This document shows positions 25,577 through 37,666 of a stretch of DNA of 44,408 bases, one piece after another. Positions within the stretch are counted from its first letter, which is position 1. Every line of letters begins with the position of its first letter. The notes under the pieces were generated by a model. That model worked only from the letters and a program-made list of their open reading frames with translations, searched no databases and was not told where the DNA came from. A program made the position numbers and the translations under genes. Location: positions 1 to 44,408 of the forward strand of contig NZ_JAICBZ010000027.1 of the NCBI RefSeq assembly GCF_020179405.1, in the 5' to 3' direction. The DNA comes from Xinfangfangia pollutisoli (GTDB taxonomy: Bacteria; Pseudomonadota; Alphaproteobacteria; Rhodobacterales; Rhodobacteraceae).

Positions 25577-26149
25577 ATGACCCAGACGCTGATCGTTCCC
25601 GGCCTTGACGGATCGCCTGCGCCGCATTGGCAGCATTGGTGGTCGGTGACCGAAGCAGATGCCCAGATGGTGGACCTGTCCGATCCCAGCCGGCCGGTGC
25701 CGGCCGTGTGGGAATATGAATTGGCGCAGGCGATTGTGGCTGCGCCCGACAGCATCCTGGTCGGCCATTCGCTGGGCGCGGTGCTGATCGCGCGGCTCTT
25801 GACGCGCTATCCCGATCTTCCGGTGCGCGCGGCGCTGCTGGTCGCGCCCGCCGAGACGCGGGGCAGCGACCGGATCGGCCAGTTCGGCCCGATCCCCGAG
25901 CGGCTGCTGCCGGTGCCGTCCACCGTGGTCGCCAGCCGCAACGACCCCTGGATGAGCCTTGGCCGCGCCAGCCAGCTGGCCTCGGCCTGGGGCGCGCGGC
26001 TGGTCGATCTGGGCGAGGCGGGGCATATCAACCGGGCCTCGGGCTTCGGTCCCTGGCCCGAGGGCAAGGTGCTGCGCGATGCGCTGATCCTGCGCAGTGC
26101 CCGTGCGCCGTTCCTGGCCGTGCCCCAGGCGGCCTGGCGCGCGATCTAG
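25577..26149 (+). CDS. RBBP9/YdeN-type serine hydrolase
   Basis: The 190-residue alpha/beta hydrolase begins MTQTLIVPGLDGSPAPHWQHWW, characteristic of the RBBP9/YdeN family. The triad is visible: Ser65 in GHSLGA, Asp123 in SRNDPW and His150 in GEAGHINRASG. Such enzymes hydrolyse small esters or amides; the natural substrate is not known here. AAGGAGG (25564-25570) six bases before ATG 25577 decides the start. An AT-rich stretch at about 25508-25545 probably holds the promoter, but I cannot place a convincing -35/-10 pair. A GC hairpin follows the gene. Confidence 0.88.
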   Translation: MTQTLIVPGLDGSPAPHWQHWWSVTEADAQMVDLSDPSRPVPAVWEYELAQAIVAAPDSILVGHSLGAVLIARLLTRYPDLPVRAALLVAPAETRGSDRIGQFGPIPERLLPVPSTVVASRNDPWMSLGRASQLASAWGARLVDLGEAGHINRASGFGPWPEGKVLRDALILRSARAPFLAVPQAAWRAI

Positions 26150-26504: not shown

Positions 26505-26704
26505 GCCTGCTGTCCAGACGTTTTCACCGCCCGCCGGGCCTGCCCCCCGGGTGGGCCTGGCCGGGTGCTTCGATGCGGGCGCCGATGCAGGCGTCGATGC
26601 AGATCTCCGCCCCCTAGGCCCCTCCGGTTCCGCCCTGTCGGAAAGCGACCTCTGAGCGTCGCCGCTGATCGGCGAAATTTGCGCCCCGGGCTTATCTTCA
26701 GCCT

Positions 26705-26880
26705 TGCAAGGTGCCGCTGGCGACAGCGGAGAATTGGGAAGCCGGTGCAGGACCGGCGCTGCCCCCGCAACGGTGACGGGATCAGAGCATGGCACGGCCA
26801 CTGGGGAGAGGGAGCCCCGGGAAGGCGCCATGATCGGGGCCGAAAGGCCCATCCCCCAGCCCGGAAACCAGCCTTCGCAT
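26705..26880 (+). promoter_or_regulatory. Cobalamin (AdoCbl/B12) riboswitch
   Basis: All main elements of the cobalamin riboswitch aptamer appear in order: AAGGTGCC at 26708-26715; GGGAAGCCGGTG from 26736; the invariant GCTGCCCCCGCAACGGTGA spanning 26758-26776; GCCACTG at 26797-26803; GGGAAGGCG at 26818-26826; and a B12-box variant, AGCCCGGAAACCAGCC, at 26858-26873. It lies on the plus strand about 140 bases before the Rieske oxygenase gene, with no other gene in between. Binding of cobalamin normally turns such genes off. A hairpin close to the start codon may be the expression platform. Confidence 0.93.
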
Positions 26881-26983
26881 CGAACGCCAAGCCGCGGGTG
26901 GTGGTGTGGGCGAGGATTCGGGCTGCCTCCCCTCGGCGCGGCCCGCCCGCGCCCCAGTGCCGTCCGCATGACCCGATCCCTCC

Positions 26984-27015
26984 CCGTGCCACGGCACGGA
27001 TCTCAGACAGGTGCC
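26984..27015 (+). promoter_or_regulatory. Possible riboswitch expression platform at Rieske gene start
   Basis: CCGTGCC (26984-26990) and GGCACGG (26993-26999) form a tight hairpin. GGCAC (26993-26997) can instead pair with a second GTGCC at 27011-27015, directly before the ATG at 27018, which would bury the weak ribosome site CAGG (27008-27011). The two pairings exclude each other, as expected of a translation-level switch. This is inference from complementarity. Confidence 0.4.
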
Positions 27016-27017
27016 AC

Positions 27018-28256
27018 ATGCTCAGCCCGACCGACATCGCGGCCGAACTTGCCGCCCGCAAGGCCGGCTTCTCGCTTTCCCGCCCGCTTTACTGCGACGA
27101 GGGCACATTCGCCGCCGATCTTGAGCAGATCTGGTATCGCGAATGGCTGTTTGCGCTGCCGGCCTGCCAGCTGGACAAGCCGGGCGCTTATGCGACGCTG
27201 CAGATCGGCGCCTATCCGGTGGTGGTGGTGCGCGGCACCGACAACATGATCCGCGCCTTTCACAATGTCTGCCGCCATCGCGGCCAGCGCCTGTGTTCCA
27301 AGACCACGGGCACGACGCCGAAACTGGTCTGCCCCTATCACCAATGGACCTATGACCTTGACGGCAAACTGCAATATGCCCGCGACATGGGCGAGGATTT
27401 CGACCCCGCCGCCTTCGGTCTGAAGAAGGTGCATTGCGCCGATCTGGGCGGGATGGTCTTCCTCTGCCTGGCCGAGGTGCCGCCGCCGGTGGCCGATCTG
27501 GCCAAGAACCTGATGGCCTATACCGCGCCTTCGGGCCTGAAGGATGCCAAGGTCGCCTTCTCCTCGACCATCGTCGAGAACGGCAACTGGAAGCTGGTGC
27601 TGGAAAACAACCGCGAATGCTATCATTGCGGCGGCTCGCACCCCTCGCTGTGCCGGACCTATTCCGACAATCCGCGGATGACGGCGATGGACGGGCCCGA
27701 CAGCGCCAGCGCCGAGATCCTGGCGCATTGGCAGCGCTGCGAAGCCGCGGGCCTGCCGTCGCGCTTCCTGATGCATCCCAGCCATCAATGGCGGCTGGCG
27801 CGGATTCCGCTGCTGAACCACGCCGAAAGCTATACGATGTCGACCAAGGCCGCCGTGGCGAAACGCATGGGTACCATGCCCTTCAACGATGCCGGCAGCC
27901 TCTTGTTCTTCCACTACCCGAACAGCTGGAACCATTTCCTCGGCGATCACGCCATCACCTTCCGCGTGCTGCCGATCAGCCCGACGGAAACCGAAGTCAC
28001 CACCAGCTGGCTGGTGCACAAGGATGCGGTCGAGGGCGTGGATTACGATCTGAAGACCCTGACCGAGGTCTGGATCGCCACCAATGACGAAGACCGCCAG
28101 GTGGTCGAGGAAAACCAGAAGGGCATCCTGTCGCCCGCCTACGAACCCGGCCCCTATTCGCCGCTGCAAGAAGAGGGCGTGATCCAGTTCGTCGACTGGT
28201 ATTGCGCGCTGATGGCGGGCCGCCTGGCGCCGCGTCCTGCGCTGGCGGCGGAGTGA
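27018..28256 (+). CDS. Rieske oxygenase of quaternary-amine type (GbcA-like)
   Basis: The 412-residue oxygenase has a Rieske [2Fe-2S] site with Cys85 and His87 (CRHRG) and Cys105 and His108 (CPYHQW). The mononuclear iron site is NRECYHCGGSH: His203 and His208 are ligands, and Glu200 occupies the bridging position that is Asp in ring-hydroxylating dioxygenases. Glu at this point marks the group that demethylates or cleaves quaternary amines (GbcA for glycine betaine, CntA for carnitine, Stc2 for stachydrine). The REWLFA and FHNVCRHRGQRLC text is closest, by memory, to GbcA. The likely reaction is O2- and electron-dependent N-demethylation of glycine betaine to dimethylglycine and formaldehyde. 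It is cotranscribed with its reductase and controlled by a cobalamin riboswitch. The exact substrate is unproved. Confidence 0.87.
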   Translation: MLSPTDIAAELAARKAGFSLSRPLYCDEGTFAADLEQIWYREWLFALPACQLDKPGAYATLQIGAYPVVVVRGTDNMIRAFHNVCRHRGQRLCSKTTGTTPKLVCPYHQWTYDLDGKLQYARDMGEDFDPAAFGLKKVHCADLGGMVFLCLAEVPPPVADLAKNLMAYTAPSGLKDAKVAFSSTIVENGNWKLVLENNRECYHCGGSHPSLCRTYSDNPRMTAMDGPDSASAEILAHWQRCEAAGLPSRFLMHPSHQWRLARIPLLNHAESYTMSTKAAVAKRMGTMPFNDAGSLLFFHYPNSWNHFLGDHAITFRVLPISPTETEVTTSWLVHKDAVEGVDYDLKTLTEVWIATNDEDRQVVEENQKGILSPAYEPGPYSPLQEEGVIQFVDWYCALMAGRLAPRPALAAE

Positions 28257-28260
28257 TCCG

Positions 28261-29352
28261 ATGGCCAGGCAAAGGATGAACTGGTCGGCCGAACCCTGGA
28301 GCGACGCCGAGCCGCTGGAATGCGCCATGGTCGTGCCGGAAACCGGCGACACCGCAACCTTCACCTTCCGGTCGCCCTCGGGCGCCTGGTTCGACTATCA
28401 GCCCGGCCAGTTCATCACCCTGGATCTGCCGGTCGATCCGAAGAAAGGCGCCAAGGGCAATATCCAGCGCACCTATACGATCTCCTCCTCGCCCTCGCGG
28501 CCCCTGTCGATCTCGATCACCGTCAAGGCGCAGTCGACCAGCCAGGGCACGCGCTGGATGCTGGACCATCTGAAGCCCGGCATGCAGATCCGCGCCTTCG
28601 GGCCCTCGGGCATCTTCTCGTTCCACCGCCATCCGGCGCAGAAATACCTGTTCATCTCGGCCGGCTCGGGCATCACGCCGATGATGTCGATGACGACCTG
28701 GGCCTGGGATTCGGGCGAAATGCCCGACATCACCTTCGTGCATGCCGCCCGCCGCCCCTCCGAGATCATCTTCCGCGAAAGGCTGGAGCAATTTGCCAAT
28801 CGCGTGCCGGGGCTGAAACTGCGCTTCACGGTCGAGGAACCCGATCCGTTCCGCGCCTGGCCCGGCTATCTGGGTCGGCTGAACCAGATCATGCTGGGGC
28901 TGATGGCGCCCGATTACCTCGACCGCGAAGTCTTCTGCTGCGGCCCCGAGCCCTTCATGCAATCCGTGCGCGAGATGCTGGTGTCGATCGGCTATGACAT
29001 GGAGCGTTACCACCAGGAAAGCTTCGGCGCCCCGGTCGCGACCGAAGCCGAAGCCCCGGTGATCGACGATGTCGCCCCGGTCGAGGGGGCACGGGCCGAG
29101 ATCGCCTTCACCGCCTCGGGCGTCACCGCGCGCTGCGATGAAACCGACACCGTGCTGGCGGTGGCCAAGGCCTCGGGGCTGAACATCCCCTCGGGCTGCA
29201 CCTTCGGCCTGTGCGGCACCTGCAAGGTCAAGAAGACCGAGGGCGAGGTGCATATGGTCCATAATGGCGGGATCAGCGACGACGACATCGCCGCGGGCTA
29301 TATCCTGGCCTGTTGTTCGCGCCCGCTGGGCCGGATCGCGGTCGAGGTCTAG
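28261..29352 (+). CDS. FAD/[2Fe-2S] oxidoreductase, partner of Rieske oxygenase (GbcB-like)
   Basis: The 363-residue reductase has an FAD-binding barrel with RTYTISS (70-76), an NAD(P)-binding domain with SAGSGITPMM (about 138-147) and a C-terminal plant-type ferredoxin domain with Cys313, Cys318, Cys321 and Cys351 or 352 (CTFGLCGTC...ACC). It carries electrons from NAD(P)H to the Rieske oxygenase encoded just upstream; the genes are four bases apart. This domain order matches GbcB and related reductases. A ribosome site GGAG at 28249-28252 lies inside the end of the upstream gene. A second in-frame ATG at 28276 is an alternative start. The gene is followed by the convergent DUF1513 gene. Confidence 0.88.
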   Translation: MARQRMNWSAEPWSDAEPLECAMVVPETGDTATFTFRSPSGAWFDYQPGQFITLDLPVDPKKGAKGNIQRTYTISSSPSRPLSISITVKAQSTSQGTRWMLDHLKPGMQIRAFGPSGIFSFHRHPAQKYLFISAGSGITPMMSMTTWAWDSGEMPDITFVHAARRPSEIIFRERLEQFANRVPGLKLRFTVEEPDPFRAWPGYLGRLNQIMLGLMAPDYLDREVFCCGPEPFMQSVREMLVSIGYDMERYHQESFGAPVATEAEAPVIDDVAPVEGARAEIAFTASGVTARCDETDTVLAVAKASGLNIPSGCTFGLCGTCKVKKTEGEVHMVHNGGISDDDIAAGYILACCSRPLGRIAVEV

Positions 29353-29454: not shown

Positions 29455-30516
29455 TCAGGCTGTCAGCCCCACCGGCACAAGGTGGTTGTCCCAGGCCACG
29501 TCGGCCCGGCTCAGCGGCTCCAGCGCCTCGGGCGTCGCCCGCCACAGGCCGCCCGCGCCATCGGTGGCGATGAACGCGGTGCCCAGCGGCGCCACGCCGC
29601 ACAGATCGGCGCGGCGATGGGTGGCAAGCGGCGCGCCGGTTTCCGAGAAGATCATCACCGCGCCGCCCCGGGGCGAGGTCAGCGCGACCCGGCCGCCCGC
29701 GCAGGCGATCGAGCCGGCATAGCCCTGCAGGGTGAACATCTCGGCCTCGGCCGCGGGGCACAGCACCGGCGCCGCGCCCGGGGTCCACAGCCCCAGCAGC
29801 GGCACAGGTTCGGCCGGGTCGCCCTGCCATTGCATCGCGAAGGCCACGCCGGTTGCGGTCAGGGCCAGATGCCGGATCGAGTTCTGCCGCAGCTCTTCGG
29901 GCAGTTCGGCCAGGTCCAGCAGCGCGCCCTCGGCCGAGAACAGCGCCAGATTGGGCCGCATCGTATCGAGGTTCAGCAGGGTGCGGTCGGTCGGATCGGT
30001 CTCGATCCCGCCATTGGCCACCACGATGCGCCCGCCGGGCAGGCGGCGCAGCTCATGCGGGCCCAGACCATGGCTGTCCCATTCGCCGATCCGGGTAAAG
30101 CCCGCCGTTTCCCACAGGCCGACCCGGCCCGCCGATCCTTCGGCCACCACTTCCGAGGTCATCAGCAGGCTGCCATCTTCGGAAAAGGCGCCATGGCCGT
30201 TGAATTGCCGGCCCTCGGGCGGGGTCAGCCGATGCGCGATCTCGCCGGTGCGGCAGTCCAGCACCAGCGCGAAGACGCCCGGGCGGCGGGCGAAGGCCAC
30301 GGCCAGCGGCCGGGTCGGATGCGCCGCCGCGGCATGGCCGCGCGCGGGCAGGGGCAGGGTGAACAGCGTGGCCCCGCTGCCGTCCAGCCCGTGCAGGACG
30401 AAATCATCGCCGATCTTTCCGGCGGCAAGATATTCCGGGCTGCCCGCATCGGCCCAGCTGGGCACCGGCAGGCTCAGCGCGGCCAGACCGGCCAGAAACC
30501 CACGTCGCGTTGCCAT
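29455..30516 (-). CDS. DUF1513 protein, Tat-exported beta-propeller
   Basis: The 353-residue product starts MATRRGFLAGLAALSLPVPSWA, a Tat-type signal peptide with the twin arginine, so it is exported folded to the periplasm. The rest is a beta-propeller-like repeat protein, with HPTRPLAVAFARRPG, FNGHGAFSEDGSLLMTSE, WDSHGLGPHELRRLPGG and VVANGGIETDP typical of DUF1513. Its biochemical function is unknown, but it is the regular last gene of imelysin operons. The start at 30516 follows the upstream stop by one base, with GGGGA as ribosome site, so translation is coupled. The Tat route suggests a bound cofactor or metal. Confidence 0.87.
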   Translation of the reverse strand: MATRRGFLAGLAALSLPVPSWADAGSPEYLAAGKIGDDFVLHGLDGSGATLFTLPLPARGHAAAAHPTRPLAVAFARRPGVFALVLDCRTGEIAHRLTPPEGRQFNGHGAFSEDGSLLMTSEVVAEGSAGRVGLWETAGFTRIGEWDSHGLGPHELRRLPGGRIVVANGGIETDPTDRTLLNLDTMRPNLALFSAEGALLDLAELPEELRQNSIRHLALTATGVAFAMQWQGDPAEPVPLLGLWTPGAAPVLCPAAEAEMFTLQGYAGSIACAGGRVALTSPRGGAVMIFSETGAPLATHRRADLCGVAPLGTAFIATDGAGGLWRATPEALEPLSRADVAWDNHLVPVGLTA

Positions 30517-30517
30517 C

Positions 30518-31522
30518 TCAATCCCCATCCGCCGCGTTGAAGCCCAGATCCACGCCCAGATCGCGGGCCAGCTCCGACAGCGCCTTCTGCCGCGTCGCAT
30601 CCACCGCCTGCTGCAGGATCTGCAGCTTCAGCCAGCCCGACGGATCGGCGATGCCCGAGAAATCCGGGTCGTCCAGCGCCTGGGCCAACTGGATCGCATG
30701 ATCGAAGGCCGCCAGCGTCTGCGGCGCGTTGGGGCTGAGCGTTTCGGTCATCGCCCGCAGCGCCTGCAGCGAGACCAGAACATTGCGCAGGCTGCGCCCC
30801 GAGGCGCGGGCCTCGGCCAATTCGGGGCGCGGCTTGTCGAATGTGCCCAGCGGGCGGCCGATCCGCTGGTCCTTGATGAATTCCAGCCCGGTCGCGATCT
30901 GGGTGAACAGCGCCTGGCGCACTTCGGATTCGGTCAGGAAGGTCGCATTGCCGGGCGCGCCGGCGGTCAGCATCACATCGGCATAAGACCCGGTCCAGTC
31001 GGTCTCGATCGCCGCCGCCATGCGCGCGAGATCATCGGCCGTGGCGCGGATCAGCGGGCAGGTGTCGGCGGCAAGGGGCGTGGCGGGATAGAGAAGCCGC
31101 TCCAGGCTGAAAAAGCCCCGCGCCGCGACCGATTGCTGGGCGAAGGCCTCGGGTGCAAGCAGGGCCGGGTCGGCCCCGATCAGCGCCTTCTGCGCCTTGG
31201 CGCCCATGCCCTTGGGGTCGGGCCAGAAGGCGATCGCCAGCGCGCGGCCCTGATCCTCGGCCGGGCCCAGGCGCAGCCATTGCACCTCAAGCCAGGCATC
31301 CCAGGCGGCGTTGAAGGGTGCGGCAAGCGCGGCGGGATCGCAGGTCTCGGCCGCTTTGGCCGCCAGATCGGCGGTGGCGGCACGGAAATCGGCATAGCCG
31401 GGCAGCAGCGTCTGCCTTACCGCTTCGGGATAATCGGCCCGGGCCGGGCCGGCCCCCAGCGCAAGGGCGCCGCCGGCGGCCAGGAAACAGGCAAGAACGG
31501 CAAGGCGGATGCGGATCGTCAT
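30518..31522 (-). CDS. Imelysin-family periplasmic protein (second)
   Basis: The 334-residue product has a signal peptide (about 1-29, ending ARA) and the helical imelysin (peptidase M75-like) fold. Imelysin-like proteins bind or help take up iron and are usually iron-repressed. In place of the family GxHxxE motif, this copy has GFFSLE (in ARGFFSLERLLYP), so the histidine is missing; this fits a distinct subfamily that may have lost or changed metal binding. Its ATG overlaps the stop of the di-heme gene by four bases. It stands third in the operon. Confidence 0.86.
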   Translation of the reverse strand: MTIRIRLAVLACFLAAGGALALGAGPARADYPEAVRQTLLPGYADFRAATADLAAKAAETCDPAALAAPFNAAWDAWLEVQWLRLGPAEDQGRALAIAFWPDPKGMGAKAQKALIGADPALLAPEAFAQQSVAARGFFSLERLLYPATPLAADTCPLIRATADDLARMAAAIETDWTGSYADVMLTAGAPGNATFLTESEVRQALFTQIATGLEFIKDQRIGRPLGTFDKPRPELAEARASGRSLRNVLVSLQALRAMTETLSPNAPQTLAAFDHAIQLAQALDDPDFSGIADPSGWLKLQILQQAVDATRQKALSELARDLGVDLGFNAADGD

Positions 31523-33060
31523 AGGCTCTCCAGAAAGGCGATCAGATCGGCGCGGTCCCCGGCCGGCAGCGCCATGAAAGCATCGCGCTGGGTCTGGGCC
31601 TCGCCCCCGTGCCAGAGGATCGCTTCGGTCAGGTCGCGGGCGCGGCCATCATGCAGGAACTGGCTGTGATTGGAAACCTGCCGGGTCAGCCCGATGCCCC
31701 AAAGCGGCGCCGTGCGCCATTCGCTGCCCGAGGCGCGGCCTTCGGGCCGGTCATCGGCCAGGCCGGGGCCCATGTCATGCAACAGAAGGTCGCTATAGGG
31801 CCAGATCAGCTGAAAGCTTTGCTCGGGCCGGTCCTGCAGCCGGGCGGTGACGAATTTCGGCTGATGGCAGCCCTGGCAGTTCAGCCCGTAGAACAGCTCT
31901 TTGCCACGCAGCACCGCGGGATCGTCCAGCGCCACCCGTTCTGGCACGGCAAGGTTGCGCGAATAGAAGGTCACCAGATCCAGGCTTTCGCCATCCACCT
32001 CCAGCCCGTCGCGCTTGTCGGGTTCCTGGCCCACGGCGGCCGCCCGGCAGGCGGTCTGCGCGGCGGTGCAATCGCCATAGGGATCGGGATGCAGCCAAGT
32101 CGACAGGCCCATATCGCCGGAAAACGCCCCGGCCGATTGTTCCTTGATGGTGGGCGCCCCGGCCTTCAGCCCGAAACGCCCCAGCATCGGCACGCCGAAT
32201 TCAACCGAGGGCACGATCTGCGCCCGGCCCGAAATCCCGTCGCCATCGGCATCGTCGGGATCGGCCAGCGCCAGGATGTCGGCGGCGGGAATGGCCTCCA
32301 GAAGCCCCAGGCCGATCATCTGCGGCGCCACCCGCGGCGACAGCATCAGATCCGGCGCCGGCGCGCCATGGGCGGGGTCGGTGAAGGCATAGGTGGGCTT
32401 GCGCAGCGTCACCACCGTGCCATCCGGGAAGGTCACCGGCAGATCCTGATAGGCGATGTCCATCCGCCCCTCGGCCGGCTGGCCCGGCACGGCCAGATCC
32501 TGCAACTGCCCGCCATAGGTCGGGTCGGGCTGGGTCGCCAGCCACTCGGCGATCCCCTCGGGCGAGGGGCCGCCCGGCACGGACAGGCGCAGGAACATCG
32601 AGACCCGGCCGTCCTCGGGGCCTTCGGGCGGATGGCCACGGCCGTCCTTCACATGGCAATCCTGGCAGGCGCGGGCATTGTAATAGGGGCCCAGCCCGTC
32701 CGAGGCCTTGGTGGAAGACGGCGCCGCGACCCAGGTCTTGCGAAACAGCGCATTGCCCAACTTGAACATCATCTCGCCCTCGGGCGAGGTATTGGCCGAG
32801 AATTGCGAAAAGGCATCGGCCGTCGCGATCCGCCGCACCGTGGCCGCGCCGCCCGGCTTGGCCTCGAAGGGTTCGGGCTTCGAGAAATCCGCGGGCGCGG
32901 CCAGAACACCGGCGATCCGGGCCGTTTCGGCCTTGGTGCGCGGGATCATGTTCAGATGGGGATTGCCCAGGTCGGGAAGGGCGGTTTCGGCACGAAGGCC
33001 GGGGCTGGGCAGGGTGGCCGCGAGGGCAAGAAACGAGGTCAGGGAAAGCCGGCGAAGCAT
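31519..33060 (-). CDS. Di-heme c-type cytochrome oxidoreductase
   Basis: The 513-residue protein has a signal peptide (about 1-24) and two heme c motifs, CQDCH (in NARACQDCHVKDGRGHPP) and CQGCH (in GLNCQGCHQPKF), fitting the di-heme thiol-oxidoreductase/DUF1111 family related to MauG and cytochrome c peroxidase. It should act in the periplasm, receiving or passing single electrons. In imelysin operons it may change the redox state of iron or of a siderophore; that is inference. Its stop overlaps the next gene by ATGA. The upstream imelysin gene is separated by 102 bases holding an intrinsic terminator, so its level may be set by readthrough. Confidence 0.9.
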   Translation of the reverse strand: MLRRLSLTSFLALAATLPSPGLRAETALPDLGNPHLNMIPRTKAETARIAGVLAAPADFSKPEPFEAKPGGAATVRRIATADAFSQFSANTSPEGEMMFKLGNALFRKTWVAAPSSTKASDGLGPYYNARACQDCHVKDGRGHPPEGPEDGRVSMFLRLSVPGGPSPEGIAEWLATQPDPTYGGQLQDLAVPGQPAEGRMDIAYQDLPVTFPDGTVVTLRKPTYAFTDPAHGAPAPDLMLSPRVAPQMIGLGLLEAIPAADILALADPDDADGDGISGRAQIVPSVEFGVPMLGRFGLKAGAPTIKEQSAGAFSGDMGLSTWLHPDPYGDCTAAQTACRAAAVGQEPDKRDGLEVDGESLDLVTFYSRNLAVPERVALDDPAVLRGKELFYGLNCQGCHQPKFVTARLQDRPEQSFQLIWPYSDLLLHDMGPGLADDRPEGRASGSEWRTAPLWGIGLTRQVSNHSQFLHDGRARDLTEAILWHGGEAQTQRDAFMALPAGDRADLIAFLESL

Positions 33061-33090
33061 CGGTGGGCTCCTTTCGCCGCTTTCGATATT

Positions 33091-33146
33091 CTTTTTCCTG
33101 ACCGTTTCAATCGGAAAAAGAAGCCTGCGGCATTTCGGCCGCAGGC
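33091..33146 (-). terminator. Intrinsic terminator after first imelysin gene
   Basis: On the minus strand, GCCTGCGGC (33146-33138) pairs with GCCGCAGGC (33131-33123) across a six-base loop and is followed by TTCTTTTTCC (33122-33113). This is a textbook intrinsic terminator 17 bases after the stop. A second inverted repeat pairs the T-run block CTTTTTCC with GGAAAAAG (33098-33091), so two structures compete. The downstream genes would depend on partial readthrough or a promoter not seen. Confidence 0.85.
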
Positions 33147-33162
33147 AGGGGCTTGAAGCGGC

Positions 33163-34443
33163 TTACTGGAAGACGGCGTTCGGGTTGTCGAGGCTGTCCG
33201 AGCCTTCGAAGTCGATCTTCGACAGGCCCAGGGCCGCCACGGCGCGCTCGATCGAGGCGGTCTGGGTCACCAGCGCATTGACGCCGCCCATGATCAGCTC
33301 TTCGCCGCGTGCATCGCCCGGGGCAAGCATCTGGTCATAGGCGAAACCGCCCTCGGCCGCGGCCTTGATCGCGCCCAGGGCCGCGACCGAGGCATCGAGC
33401 TGGCCCTTCAGCTGGGTGTCCAGCGCCGCATCCTTGGCCGCCACCAGATCCGACAGCGATGGGCCCGACACGACGCTGCCATCGACGCGGGTATAGCTGC
33501 CCAGATAGACGTTCCGAATGCCAAGCCCATCATAATAATGGCTGTTATGGGTGTTGTCCGAGAAGCAGTCATGCTCTTCCTCGGGGTCGTTCAGCATCAG
33601 GCCCAGCTTCATCCGCTCGCCCGCCAATTCGCCGTAAGACAGGCTGCCCATGCCGGTCAGCATCGCCAGAAGCCCGGCCTCGGGATTGGCCAGCACGACC
33701 GCGCGGGCATCGCCGCCCTCGGCCCATTGCTTGGCCATTTCGTCCAGATCGCTGACAAGCAGATCGGTCGCGGCGACCAGATAGGCGGCGCGGCGGTCGC
33801 AATTGCCATGGGTGCAGCCGTCGCCCTGAACGTAATCGGTCCAGGGCCGGTCGCCCGCGCCCGGGCCGGTGCCGTTCAGATCCTGGCCCCACAGCAGGAA
33901 TTCGATCGCATGATAGCCCGAGGCGACATTGGCCTCGATCCCGTCGGCCTCGTGCAACGTCTCGCCGATCAACGCCGGGGTGATTTCGGTCGCGTCGATT
34001 TCGGTGCCCGACAGGGTGAATTTCGGCGTGGCGATCACGTCCAGACCGGCCAGGGCGTTTTCTTCATTCTCGGCCGAGCCGGCCTCGACATAGTCGATCA
34101 GGCCTTCGTCCAGCGGCCAGGCATTCACCTTGCCTTCCCAATCATCGACGATCGGATTGCCGAAGCGGAAGGCTTCGGATTGCTGATAGGGCACGCGGGC
34201 AGCCTTCCAGGCCTCGCGCGCGGCGGCCAGGGTTTCGGCGCTGGGGGCGGCGACGAAAGCGTCGACGGCGGCTTTCAGCACCTGGGCGGTGGTCAGCGCA
34301 TCGCCATAGGTGGCGGCGGCGATATCGACATAGGTCGTCACCACCTCGGCCGGTTCGGCCGCCAGCACGGGGGCGGACAGCGCGGTCGACAGCGCCAGAG
34401 CGGCGGTCAGCGAGCGGGGCAGGGTCAGGGACAGGCGGGGCAT
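33163..34443 (-). CDS. Imelysin-family iron-related periplasmic protein (first, IrpA-like)
   Basis: The 426-residue protein has a signal peptide (ending near SAPVLAAE) and an imelysin fold (M75 family). The GxHxxE motif is intact: GYHAIEFLLWGQD with His178 and Glu181. The family includes IrpA of cyanobacteria and ICMP of Pseudomonas, which are needed for growth in low iron. NSHYYDGLGIRNVYLG near residue 285 and PPTDYVQ-like text are typical of the long form. Start 34443 is preferred over 34449 because GAAGAGG is then six bases upstream. It heads the operon and is followed by a strong terminator, so it should be the most expressed gene. Confidence 0.9.
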   Translation of the reverse strand: MPRLSLTLPRSLTAALALSTALSAPVLAAEPAEVVTTYVDIAAATYGDALTTAQVLKAAVDAFVAAPSAETLAAAREAWKAARVPYQQSEAFRFGNPIVDDWEGKVNAWPLDEGLIDYVEAGSAENEENALAGLDVIATPKFTLSGTEIDATEITPALIGETLHEADGIEANVASGYHAIEFLLWGQDLNGTGPGAGDRPWTDYVQGDGCTHGNCDRRAAYLVAATDLLVSDLDEMAKQWAEGGDARAVVLANPEAGLLAMLTGMGSLSYGELAGERMKLGLMLNDPEEEHDCFSDNTHNSHYYDGLGIRNVYLGSYTRVDGSVVSGPSLSDLVAAKDAALDTQLKGQLDASVAALGAIKAAAEGGFAYDQMLAPGDARGEELIMGGVNALVTQTASIERAVAALGLSKIDFEGSDSLDNPNAVFQ

Positions 34444-35446
34444 CGGCATCCTCTTCGGCCAGGGGGGCGGGCCATGGGTGCCGACCCCGCAGGGCCGGGC
34501 CGCCAGTCCCGCCGAAAACGTTCAGATCACTCCGGCTCGCCTTGTAAGGCTGGCATGGTCGATCCCTATTTCTGACAAAAACAATAAGTCGTAAAGCGAA
34601 ATCCGGGCTGGGGTGCCTGACGGGGCTCGGGCGGTGCGGGCGGGGAAGGGGCGGCCACCGGAAGGGGCATTGCAACCGGCGCTTGCAAATTGCAGTGATC
34701 TTTATCTTTTCAGCTGAGTGGCGCGGATGGCCGGGTGATTCGCGGAAAGTGACGTGGCGTTATGGGTGACCTGTGGTCAGCCGTGATCAGCGCGCCGGTT
34801 TTTCCACAATTGATGCGAAATTGCGAACGACCTTTTAGTGCGGTGCCAAAGTTTCGCCCAGATTCTCTGCGCTGCCGAAACCGGCGCCGGGCCCGGTCCC
34901 AGGCGGCCCGGCTGTGGCTGGATTTGGAAACAATCCTCTGGCAAGCCGGTCAGCGTTTCGGCGCTAATCCCATAAATCAGGCCGAAACCGCCCGGAAGAC
35001 TTTGCTGCGGACCGGAAACAATCCGCCCGCGACGCGACACAGCGCCAGCGGCAAATCGCCCGCAAAACCCTGCATCTGAAAACCGGGATCGCCGCAATCC
35101 CGCCGTTTTCCGCTTCACGACAAGGCAAACGAAAGGTAATCAGAAAAGGTCAGTTTAGACGTATTGGCCGTGGGGGCGGTCGTATGTTGGTGACGCGCCA
35201 GAGCAATCTGGCGTGGAACGGTGACGAAGGTGCTGCCATTCCCGGCCGATCCGGGACAAACGCCGCTTTTCTGCGGCCGGTCCGTGCTGGACCGGGCAAA
35301 TCCCTCATCCCATCACCTCATCCGTCCGGCCCGTGCGGCGCACGGCGCAGGTCTATGCCCGTTGCGTGGAGGGGAGGTCCGGCTCTACCGGACCGACGAA
35401 ATGGAACGCAGCCGGTTTGCGCCGGCGCCATGTACGGGGATAGGTC
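34444..35446. other. 1-kb intergenic region between imelysin operon and RTX genes
   Basis: No convincing gene lies in these 1003 bases; open frames here have no ribosome site or recognisable product. Visible structures are: the AT-rich dyad at 34574-34590; three TTGCA boxes, TTGCAA (34670-34675), TTGCAA (34683-34688) and TTGCAG (34690-34695), followed by the AT-rich TGATCTTTATCTTTTC; and repeated GGAAACAATCC motifs (34926-34936 and 35016-35026) amid several CCGAAAC/GGAAAC words. GGGGATAGG at 35434-35442 serves the RTX start at 35447. The length suggests a complex promoter or long leader for the RTX gene, or an unrecognised small RNA. Confidence 0.45.
34574..34590. promoter_or_regulatory. AT-rich dyad upstream of imelysin operon
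   Basis: GACAAAAACAATAAGTC (34574-34590) has outer GAC/GTC symmetry around an A/T core, about 130 bases upstream of the first imelysin start. Iron-responsive operators in Rhodobacterales are AT-rich dyads of similar size, so this is a candidate, but I cannot match it to a defined consensus. Confidence 0.25.
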
Positions 35447-37666
35447 ATGCCGGTTTTCGCGCTGTACAATTTCAACGACGCTTCGACCGTTGTCGACGAT
35501 GCGCCGATCAATGGGGTGCAGAACGGCATCTACCTGAACGGTGCGACGGCCGAGAATGGCAATCTGCTGCTGGACGGGCAAAGCGCTTTCGTCAAGATCT
35601 ACCCGGCCAGCCAGTTCCAGATGCCGCAGGGCACGCTGGAGATCAATTTCACCCCCACGGGCACCGATCTGACCGAACCGCAGACGGTTCTGTCGCGCGA
35701 CTCGGCCGGTGAGAACCAGGGCAGCTACCAGATCCAGGTCTATCCCGACGGCTCGGTGCAGATCACCCATGAAAGCGAAGGCGCAAGCACCGTCTTCACC
35801 ACCGGCCCGGGCTTCTACAGCCCCGGCGACGAGATCAACGTCACCTATTCCTGGGACGAAGGCGGCACCGGCGGGGCGCTGCAGATCGAGAATGCCGCGA
35901 CCGGCGGCAGCTATGCGGCGGCCGTGCCGAACGCGCTGACCATGGACATGGCCGACCAAAGCCAGCCCTGGATGATCGGCACCGGCCAGGCCGGCAGCGA
36001 TCCGGGCATGCTGAACAACCTGGACGGCTATTTCCAGGGCACGGTCGATTTCTTCTCGCTGTCGGACACGGTCGACAATCCGCCCTATACCGGGCCCGAT
36101 GGCATCGTGCGCGGAACCGAGGATGGCGATCTGATCGACACCTCTTATGTCGACCCCTATGACGGCGACCGGATCGACGCGAATGACGCGCTGATCCCGG
36201 GCGACGGCCCGAATGACGACCGCGTTGTCGCGGGTGGCGGCAACGATACGGTCTATTCCGGCGCGGGCAACGATACGGTCTATGGCGGCGATGGCGATGA
36301 TCTGATCGTCACCCATCCCGACACCATCCCGCTGCCCGATATCGGCTATCCGGGCCTGTACCCGGCGGATTCCGACCCGAACAACGATCTTGATCTGGTC
36401 TATGGCGGGGCGGGCAATGACACGATCCGGACCGGCGACGATGCCGACACGATCTATGGCGGCACCGGCAATGACCTGATCGACGCGGGCATCGACGCCG
36501 ATCTGGTGCATGGCGACGCGGGCGACGACACGATCGTCGGCGGCGAGGGCGCGGACACGATCTATGGCGGCGACGGCGACGACCTGATCTATGGCGGGCT
36601 GAACGACGTCATCGGCGATGCGCTGGACATTCCCGATGACAACGGCGACCTGGTTCCGAACAACAATACCGACCTGCTTTATGGCGGGGCGGGCAATGAC
36701 ACGATCTATGGTCGCGACGATGACGACACGCTGTATGGCGGCGCCGGCAATGACCTGCTCTATGGCGGGGTCGATGACGACGAGATCCATGGCGATGCCG
36801 GCAATGACACGCTGCATGGCGATCATGGCGCCGACAGCATGTATGGCGGGGCCGATCGCGACGTGTTCGTGATCGCCAATGGCACCGACGGGATCGGCGA
36901 TTTCATCGATGGCGGCGAAGAGGGCGACGATTACGACACGCTCGACCTGTCGGAAGCCGGCCCGCTGACCATCGACTATGATCAGGACAATCCCGAAAAC
37001 GGCGTGGTCACGTTCTTCGATCCCGATGGCAATCCCACCGGCACGCTGAACTTCATCAACATCGAGAATGTCATTCCGCCGATCTGCTTCACCCCCGGCA
37101 CGCTGATCGCGACGCCGCGGGGCGAGGTTCCGGTGGAATCGCTGCGGCCCGGCGACAAGGTGGTGACGCGCGACAACGGCATCCAGGAGATCCGCTGGAC
37201 CGGCGCCAAGACCGTCTCGGGCCAGGACCTGCGCCGCCATGCGCATCTGAACCCGGTTCTGGTCAAGGCCCACAGCCTGGGCAATGGCCTGCCGGAACAG
37301 GACATGCTGCTGTCGCCGAACCACCGCGTGCTGGTCGCCAATGACCGCACCCAGCTGTATTTCGACGAACATGAGGTTCTGGTCGCCGCCAAGCATCTGG
37401 TCGGCCTGCCGGGCGTGCATGCCGTGGCCTCGATCGGGGTGACCTATATCCACTTCCTCTGCGACCGGCATGAGGTGGTTCTGTCGAATGGCGCCTGGAC
37501 CGAAAGCTTCCAGCCCGGCGATTACTCGCTGAAGGGCTTGGGCAATGCGCAGCGCAACGAGATCATGGAACTGTTCCCCGAGCTGAAGACGGAAGCGGGT
37601 CTGGACGGCTATCAGGCCGCCCGGCGCACGCTGAAGCGGCACGAGGCCAAGATCCTGGCGAAGTAA
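35447..37666 (+). CDS. RTX protein with LamG-like N-domain and C-terminal Hint module (1)
   Basis: This 739-residue acidic protein has no N-terminal signal peptide. Residues 1-210 form a LamG/concanavalin-like beta sandwich (starting FALYNFNDASTVVDD). Calcium-binding RTX nonapeptides (GGxGxDxxx) run from about 255 to 480, broken by short inserts. A linker with PENGVVTFFDPDG precedes Cys547, the first residue of a Hint_2 domain (CFTPGTLIATPRGEVPVESL...GDKVVTRD), which has SPNHRVLV as the block B-like His motif. A conserved tail (TESFQPG...LFPEL) ends the protein. RTX proteins leave by type I secretion and fold on calcium; Hint domains can self-cleave at the cysteine. It is the first of three such genes; a terminator follows. 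Confidence 0.88.
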   Translation: MPVFALYNFNDASTVVDDAPINGVQNGIYLNGATAENGNLLLDGQSAFVKIYPASQFQMPQGTLEINFTPTGTDLTEPQTVLSRDSAGENQGSYQIQVYPDGSVQITHESEGASTVFTTGPGFYSPGDEINVTYSWDEGGTGGALQIENAATGGSYAAAVPNALTMDMADQSQPWMIGTGQAGSDPGMLNNLDGYFQGTVDFFSLSDTVDNPPYTGPDGIVRGTEDGDLIDTSYVDPYDGDRIDANDALIPGDGPNDDRVVAGGGNDTVYSGAGNDTVYGGDGDDLIVTHPDTIPLPDIGYPGLYPADSDPNNDLDLVYGGAGNDTIRTGDDADTIYGGTGNDLIDAGIDADLVHGDAGDDTIVGGEGADTIYGGDGDDLIYGGLNDVIGDALDIPDDNGDLVPNNNTDLLYGGAGNDTIYGRDDDDTLYGGAGNDLLYGGVDDDEIHGDAGNDTLHGDHGADSMYGGADRDVFVIANGTDGIGDFIDGGEEGDDYDTLDLSEAGPLTIDYDQDNPENGVVTFFDPDGNPTGTLNFINIENVIPPICFTPGTLIATPRGEVPVESLRPGDKVVTRDNGIQEIRWTGAKTVSGQDLRRHAHLNPVLVKAHSLGNGLPEQDMLLSPNHRVLVANDRTQLYFDEHEVLVAAKHLVGLPGVHAVASIGVTYIHFLCDRHEVVLSNGAWTESFQPGDYSLKGLGNAQRNEIMELFPELKTEAGLDGYQAARRTLKRHEAKILAK

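Follow-up and report, generated by a model that had tools for sequence, protein, structure and literature searches.

Control of vitamin B12-independent isozymes is a listed functional category of cobalamin riboswitches (PMC3766115), and the rule that goes with it, namely that cobalamin represses the B12-independent enzyme where one genome holds both isozymes (PMC2211319), has been tested for metE/metH (PMC9600662). The locus described here lies in a 44,408 nucleotide (nt) stretch of DNA from the alphaproteobacterium Xinfangfangia pollutisoli (contig NZ_JAICBZ010000027.1, analysed whole and called "the window" below), in which a cobalamin aptamer stands directly before a gene pair that encodes a Rieske oxygenase and its reductase. 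Like the riboswitch-led metE and nrd isozymes, it combines a full RF00174 aptamer and a B12-independent enzyme with a candidate B12-dependent counterpart in the same genome; it differs from them in that the Rieske enzyme is catabolic, O2-dependent and unrelated to the proposed counterpart. Judging from comparative sequence analysis, we think it probable that the pair does with O2, and without B12, what corrinoid-dependent MttB/MtgB enzymes do in betaine demethylation, and that it is repressed when B12 is plentiful.

The two kinds of demethylase that this proposal brings together have been described separately. Rieske oxygenases of group V, clade Vb, are marked by a glutamate in the bridging position, a cysteine pair and an asparagine that replaces Tyr203 of CntA, and they demethylate glycine betaine (GbcA) and stachydrine (Stc2) (PMC7948474, PMC10952381). 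In 2025 Mausz et al. described a corrinoid route for the first demethylation of glycine betaine in an aerobic marine bacterium, Ruegeria pomeroyi, whose growth on this compound they reported to need a cobalamin-type system (PMC12478193). The corrinoid protein MtgC (SPO2160) and MtgD were shown by mutation to be required and are common to betaine demethylation and methionine synthesis, PF06253 proteins were proposed as MtgB, a DUF1638 protein (SPO2162) was predicted to be the recharging partner, and MtgC-like and DUF1638 proteins rose on betaine (PMC12478193). Both routes are of one reaction type, the first demethylation of a betaine, and the window's genome holds MttB-family and MtgC-like genes; the R. 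pomeroyi route is a corrinoid-dependent methyl transfer by proteins unrelated to the Rieske pair.

The aptamer (RF00174) occupies positions 26692..26891 of the + strand, where cmscan matches it at full length (model positions 1-189 of 189) with 98.1 bits and an E-value of 2e-23 (gathering score 31.5); it is the only RF00174 match in the window, and it scores 158.2 bits against our own model, R1, whose 24 training sequences include this copy. It lies in the 5' leader of the pair, on the coding strand. The 126 nt between the aptamer and the start codon (26892..27017, +) are the presumed expression platform, and no credible gene was found in this interval, which contains a small GC hairpin (CCGTGC-CACG-GCACGG; 26984..26999, +) that ends 18 nt 5' of the ATG. 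The ATG at 27018 begins the 412 amino acid (aa) oxygenase, of the group Vb quaternary-amine demethylase type (Stc2/GbcA-like; 27018..28256, +), and 4 nt past its stop follows a 363 aa FAD/NAD/2Fe-2S reductase partner (Stc4/GbcB-like; 28261..29352, +). The initial annotation, made from the letters and reading frames of the window, had described a complete aptamer followed, with no gene between, by a Rieske oxygenase with a bridging glutamate and an FAD/ferredoxin reductase, and every part of this description holds (Pfam domains and E200, below), with the 5' edge of the aptamer placed 13 nt earlier than position 26705.

Which branch of the clade does the oxygenase belong to? Its Pfam domains are Rieske and Ring_hydroxyl_A, and those of the reductase are FAD_binding_6, NAD_binding_1 and Fer2. 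The Rieske ligands are C85, H87, C105 and H108, the iron histidines are H203 and H208, and the bridging position is E200, within the motif NNRECYHC that also supplies the cysteine pair C201/C204; D357 completes the set. The residues that mark group Vb are all present, including N198 at the position of CntA Tyr203, which was placed by motif spacing and not by alignment. Ten of the 11 positions checked are identical in 48/48 aligned sequences, five GbcA proteins and a Stc2-type protein included, and position 357 is aspartate in 46/48. The nearest solved chains are PDB 3N0Q, 3VCA and 4QUP (E about 1e-170 to 1e-172), with CntA far behind at 114 bits; 3VCA and 4QUP we take to be Stc2. The third, 3N0Q, is named a putative dioxygenase, and the stretches of it that were compared by eye are identical to a protein of Ruegeria sp. 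TM1040 (L063) that is itself encoded behind a cobalamin aptamer.

Against the NCBIfam GbcA model NF058607 the oxygenase scores 502.9 bits, under the cut-off of 670, and a Stc2-type protein of Sinorhizobium meliloti (L066, which adjoins an annotated stc4 gene and is taken as Stc2) scores 498.5 bits. The oxygenase is 59% identical to L066 and 44-50% identical to ten proteins that exceed the GbcA cut-off. In the protein tree these ten form a clade of their own (support 100/99), and the window oxygenase groups with L066 and other alphaproteobacterial proteins (support 99/97), L066 being nested among relatives that carry the switch. The reductase scores 365 bits against NF058606 (cut-off 500) and is 64% identical over 350 aa to the annotated Stc4 of S. 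meliloti. Membership in GbcA is thus ruled out both by score and by the separate GbcA clade. The GbcAB name given to the type in the initial annotation proved too narrow. We place the protein in an alphaproteobacterial, Stc2-like branch, as a predicted betaine demethylase of group Vb, for which glycine betaine is the mildly favoured substrate and proline betaine (stachydrine) a possible but clearly less likely one.

The pair resembles the stachydrine demethylase Stc2/Stc4 of S. meliloti in these identities, in its active-site residues and in its two-gene order, but the S. meliloti copy, whose neighbours are a LysR gene and stc3, lacks an aptamer. It shares the group Vb motif residues and the reductase family with the glycine betaine monooxygenase GbcA/GbcB, from which it is set apart by score, identity and clade, and the aptamer is absent from 10/10 GbcA loci (those above the cut-off); it is present at 4/6 of the relatives that fall under the cut-off.

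The arrangement recurs well beyond the window. Homologues of the oxygenase (E <= 1e-80) are present in 40 of 198 sampled genomes of the family, as 41 copies, and in 16 of the 40 an aptamer immediately precedes the oxygenase gene; aptamers were sought with Rfam at the first 30 loci and with R1, built from 24 aptamers, at all 41 copies. Counted with the window included, the aptamer precedes a Rieske gene at 16/30 of the first-read loci by Rfam and in 20/53 sources by R1. Among named loci, which are the best 80 of 593 relatives, 31/80 have it, including those of Mesorhizobium, some Rhizobium, Roseibium, Ruegeria, Shimia, Sulfitobacter and a Rhodospirillaceae metagenome-assembled genome, so that the switch is spread over Rhodobacterales, Rhizobiaceae, Phyllobacteriaceae, Rhodospirillaceae and others. 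It is also found at 4/12 annotated plasmid loci (Gemmobacter fulvus, Cereibacter azotoformans, Phaeobacter gallaeciensis and Ruegeria sp. TM1040). Because the arrangement recurs at 16/30 loci, in 20/53 sources and at 31/80 named loci, the link between aptamer and Rieske gene is more than chance, and orthologous pairs do not consistently lack the aptamer. On a tree of 127 oxygenases, switch presence requires 12 changes, compared with about 39 when shuffled. The distance from aptamer to start codon is 54-217 nt (median 114) at 48 switch loci, some of whose start codons are guessed; together with the recurrence of the arrangement in several families, this rules out that the aptamer really serves an overlooked B12 gene.

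A tree of 62 aptamers places the 43 Rieske-linked ones on one side of a branch and the 19 others opposite (support 99/100); it comprises 43/55 Rieske-linked and 19/21 distinct other aptamers, with near-copies mostly omitted, and its bootstrap is rough and has not settled. Since the Rieske-linked aptamers share one side, this speaks for one origin of the Rieske-linked switch followed by later losses.

Several individual loci deserve description. At G135 (L069/L152, Pseudotabrizicola formosa) what looks by eye like the 5' third of an aptamer lies just ahead of the oxygenase start, truncated and followed immediately by the ribosome site, and the model gives it only 6.8 bits; no aptamer remnant was seen before the oxygenase at G046 (L074). 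At G077 (L078) the oxygenase homologue is broken by an in-frame TGA and has no aptamer, and the genome keeps the MttB type that adjoins dimethylglycine dehydrogenase (DmgDH)-like genes. Two loci (L092:6310-6893 and L204:5386-5880) each have two divergent, back-to-back cobalamin aptamers, of which one precedes the oxygenase and the other faces nrdH/nrdE genes.

In 7/13 Rhizobiales leaders a GTCCTT pairs with a Shine-Dalgarno-like GAGGAC in a hairpin that ends 5-6 nt before the start, and in 26/30 leaders of the Rhodobacteraceae set a stem of at least 5 pairs, differing in sequence from leader to leader, ends 11-18 nt before the start. Compared with shuffles of each single sequence, these stems are not significant: the observed scores are reached by an average of 17% of the shuffles in the Rhodobacteraceae set and by 23% of those in the Rhizobiales. 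That the stems may serve control at translation is only a guess.

The genome of the window has genes of the kinds that a corrinoid route would use. It holds five PF06253 (MttB) genes, one of which sits after two GcvT-fused FAD dehydrogenases that resemble dimethylglycine and sarcosine dehydrogenases; among the 12 best loci, 11 have the second of these two dehydrogenases close to the MttB gene. Separately, it encodes an MtgC-like corrinoid protein, whose best NCBIfam match is MtgC (NF047996; 206 bits, under the cut-off of 370) and whose gene is followed by one for a DUF1638 protein. The genome therefore holds candidates for both isozymes, five MttB and the MtgC-like protein on one side and the Rieske pair on the other, their shared substrate being presumed. 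In another part of this genome (C166, L120:3455-7026) an MttB gene lies directly 3' of an old-yellow-enzyme-type oxidoreductase gene (Pfam Oxidored_FMN), which presumably resembles the HpbA/DgcA demethylases.

Eight RF00174 elements are present in the genome. Besides the one at the Rieske pair, they stand before a DUF1636 gene, nrdHIE, a gene for an EitA-like ABC substrate-binding protein, one for a BtuB-like receptor, CbtA, BluB and a CobW cluster (in which the small first gene and the CobN-like third gene were identified by eye only). Two of the eight thus precede B12-independent enzymes, the second being a class Ib ribonucleotide reductase (nrdHIE, 1218 bits), and the genome appears to use the same isozyme logic for that enzyme. 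At a locus in genome G118 (L070:1-1892; L154 is the same contig) an aptamer is followed by nrdH- and nrdI-like genes and then by a gene with a weak match to the MetE catalytic domain (PF01717, 28.9 bits), in the place that nrdE has in the window's genome.

If the isozyme rule applies here, genomes with the switch should also have the corrinoid enzyme, for which presence of PF06253 (MttB family) was used as the measure. MttB is present in 25/25 switch-bearing and 5/25 switch-lacking named genomes (Fisher p 2e-9), and, over 91 labelled loci, in 41/41 with the switch and 26/50 without it (p 2e-8); the switch occurs at 0/24 labelled loci of genomes that have no MttB. (Roseibium aquae, of whose two copies only one has the switch, enters the 50 genomes once, as switch-bearing; it and G091 contribute two rows each to the 91 loci, and 36 of the 127 tree rows have no MttB label.) MttB is found in 0/8 tested Rhizobium, Agrobacterium and Martelella genomes that lack the switch, the eleven Rhizobium and Mesorhizobium genomes that bear it have 2-9 MttB each, and ten Paracoccus genomes in the window's branch all lack the switch, nine of them also lacking MttB. 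Within the family sample, genomes with the switch (n=16) have on average 4.25 MttB copies and those that lack it (n=24) 1.46 (p 6e-5, counting at most 7 per genome). An ortholog (at least 60% identity) of the MttB that adjoins DmgDH-like genes is present in 10/16 sample genomes with the switch and 3/24 without it (p 0.0017), and two of those three are G135, with its apparent aptamer remnant, and G077, with its broken oxygenase (above). As a control, RF00174 was found somewhere in 50/50 named genomes, including all 25 that lack the switch at the Rieske locus, which rules out that the switch is missing there because the genome does not use cobalamin riboswitches.

A number of observations weigh against reading this association as a functional one. 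Both the switch and MttB labels cluster by lineage, and a tree-aware sign test of switch versus MttB is not significant (median p 0.25); there are only 8 independent pairs on well-supported branches of which one member has the switch and the other lacks it, and in the median 3 of them are concordant, none is discordant and 5 are uninformative. Taken by itself, the family sample shows no significant difference in MttB presence (16/16 versus 20/24, p 0.14) or in MtgC presence (15/16 versus 20/24, p 0.63); PF06253 is nearly universal in the family (190/198 genomes). MttB is not sufficient for the switch, since 26/50 switch-lacking loci are in MttB-bearing genomes. Six of the 16 switch-bearing sample genomes lack the MttB ortholog that adjoins DmgDH-like genes, and one of the ten counted as having it (G100) has a contig-edge fragment with a stop. 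Finally, gbcAB homologues have been called limited in marine bacteria (PMC12478193). In sum, MttB accompanies the switch without exception in our sample, and the link may still reflect shared ancestry. The idea, already put forward in the initial annotation, that the cell shuts off the oxidative route when B12 is high and uses a corrinoid one gains good comparative support from the restriction of the switch to MttB genomes (41/41 loci) and from the MttB, MtgC-like and DUF1638 genes of the window's own genome, and is weakened by the lineage clustering. At one locus (L060:7191-11233, Rhodobacter sp. CZR27) an MttB-family gene adjoins a LysR gene and a Stc2-like pair, so that both kinds of demethylase occur together.

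Copies with and without the switch also differ in their neighbours (the copy with the in-frame stop, L078, was left out of the trees and neighbour counts, with its genome G077 kept among the 24 switch-lacking ones, and L152, L154, L155, L188 and L220, duplicates of sampled genomes, were left out of the tree and neighbour counts). An HpbA-type N-methylproline demethylase gene is near 27/79 switch-lacking and 0/48 switch-bearing copies (p 6e-7), a divergent LysR gene adjoins 20/79 and 1/48 (p 4e-4), and a DmgDH-like gene is near 9/79 and 1/48, respectively. Such switch-lacking contexts match substrate-induced betaine catabolism, as expected. The gene nrdH is near 6/48 switch-bearing and 5/79 switch-lacking copies, which is not significant (p 0.33).

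These counts bear on three other explanations of the riboswitch. The pair could be an ordinary stachydrine demethylase whose riboswitch was kept by chance and has no link to a corrinoid route; the nearest characterised protein is, after all, the 59% identical Stc2-type protein nested among switch-bearing relatives, and the MttB association follows lineage. However, the aptamer is intact and linked to the gene across several families, it is found at none of the 24 loci of MttB-less genomes, and HpbA is near none of the 48 switch-bearing copies counted, and we think this explanation very improbable. Alternatively, the pair might make one-carbon (C1) units or spare corrinoid so as to rescue methionine synthesis specifically when MetH or MtgCDE is without B12, much as the initial annotation had suggested in proposing that it supplies methyl or C1 units when methionine synthesis fails. 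MtgC and MtgD do serve both processes in R. pomeroyi (PMC12478193), and metH is near the pair at 4/48 switch-bearing loci (L056, L070, L071 and L092). It is also near 2/79 switch-lacking copies (L074 and L153), and the difference is not significant (p 0.20), so enrichment of metH, like that of nrdH, is not upheld. Moreover, methyl-tetrahydrofolate (methyl-THF) derived from formaldehyde yields methionine only via MetH or MetE, so that the rescue would still require one of these enzymes; the suggestion thus finds little support, and we regard a specific methionine link as unlikely.

The third explanation treats the pair as though it were a B12 synthesis gene under feedback repression, since demethylation of betaine yields glycine and C1 units for the corrin, through 5-aminolevulinate made by the Shemin route and through S-adenosylmethionine-dependent methylations. 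In its favour, cobalamin riboswitches mostly control synthesis and uptake genes, the genome's own aptamers precede BluB, CbtA and the CobW cluster (above), and genes for a cobalt transporter are within a few kb of the pair in Cereibacter azotoformans. This supply of precursors gives no reason for the switch to track MttB, however, and no B12 synthesis gene is among the scanned neighbours of the window's pair (cob genes were not part of the multi-locus neighbour count); we find it hard to credit.

We accordingly prefer the explanation in which the Rieske pair stands in for the corrinoid enzymes, whose ligand, direction of control and substrate we infer from sequence and from the behaviour of related systems: repression by B12 is expected because cobalamin riboswitches generally repress. 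With B12 plentiful, cobalamin would bind the aptamer and repress the oxygenase-reductase pair, perhaps at translation, and betaines would be demethylated via MttB/MtgB and the corrinoid protein MtgC to methyl-THF. With B12 scarce, repression would be lifted and the oxygenase made, which would take over the first demethylation, consuming O2 and NAD(P)H and releasing the methyl group as formaldehyde; this oxygen route would leave corrinoid for the synthesis of methionine and deoxyribonucleotides. A broader form of the proposal, which we regard as evenly poised between right and wrong, is that B12 status sets the chemistry of betaine demethylation in Alphaproteobacteria through an old RNA-controlled fork between corrinoid/methyl-THF and O2/formaldehyde, kept only while both routes exist and freeing the shared corrinoid protein for methionine.

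How much of this is new? We rate the category of isozyme control as already known and a Rieske betaine demethylase as its target as apparently new. No paper that names a Rieske demethylase as the target of a cobalamin riboswitch was found in the open PMC literature; the regulon tables of PMC3766115 (15 Rhodobacterales and 15 Rhizobiales), which are outside that search, may list the gene. In PMC12478193 the word "riboswitch" appears nowhere but in the title of a cited work. Glycine betaine is important both as an osmolyte and as a nutrient, and if the proposal is true, vitamin B12 would decide whether betaine methyls become methyl-THF or formaldehyde in bacteria that have both routes. This would make what becomes of a major osmolyte depend on a vitamin, and it would help to assign substrates to uncharacterised MttB and Rieske genes, PDB 3N0Q included.

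The surroundings of the pair in the window are of other kinds. Upstream on the same strand, the nearest neighbour is a serine hydrolase-like gene that ends at 26149, and downstream of the reductase the next four genes are on the opposite strand. These (29455-34449, -) encode a DUF1513 protein, an imelysin (M75), a di-haem oxidoreductase (DHOR) and a second imelysin; they apparently form one operon, which is probably iron-related. Farther downstream (35447-37666, +) lies a gene for a protein of 739 aa that carries RTX calcium-binding repeats as well as a Hint_2 domain.

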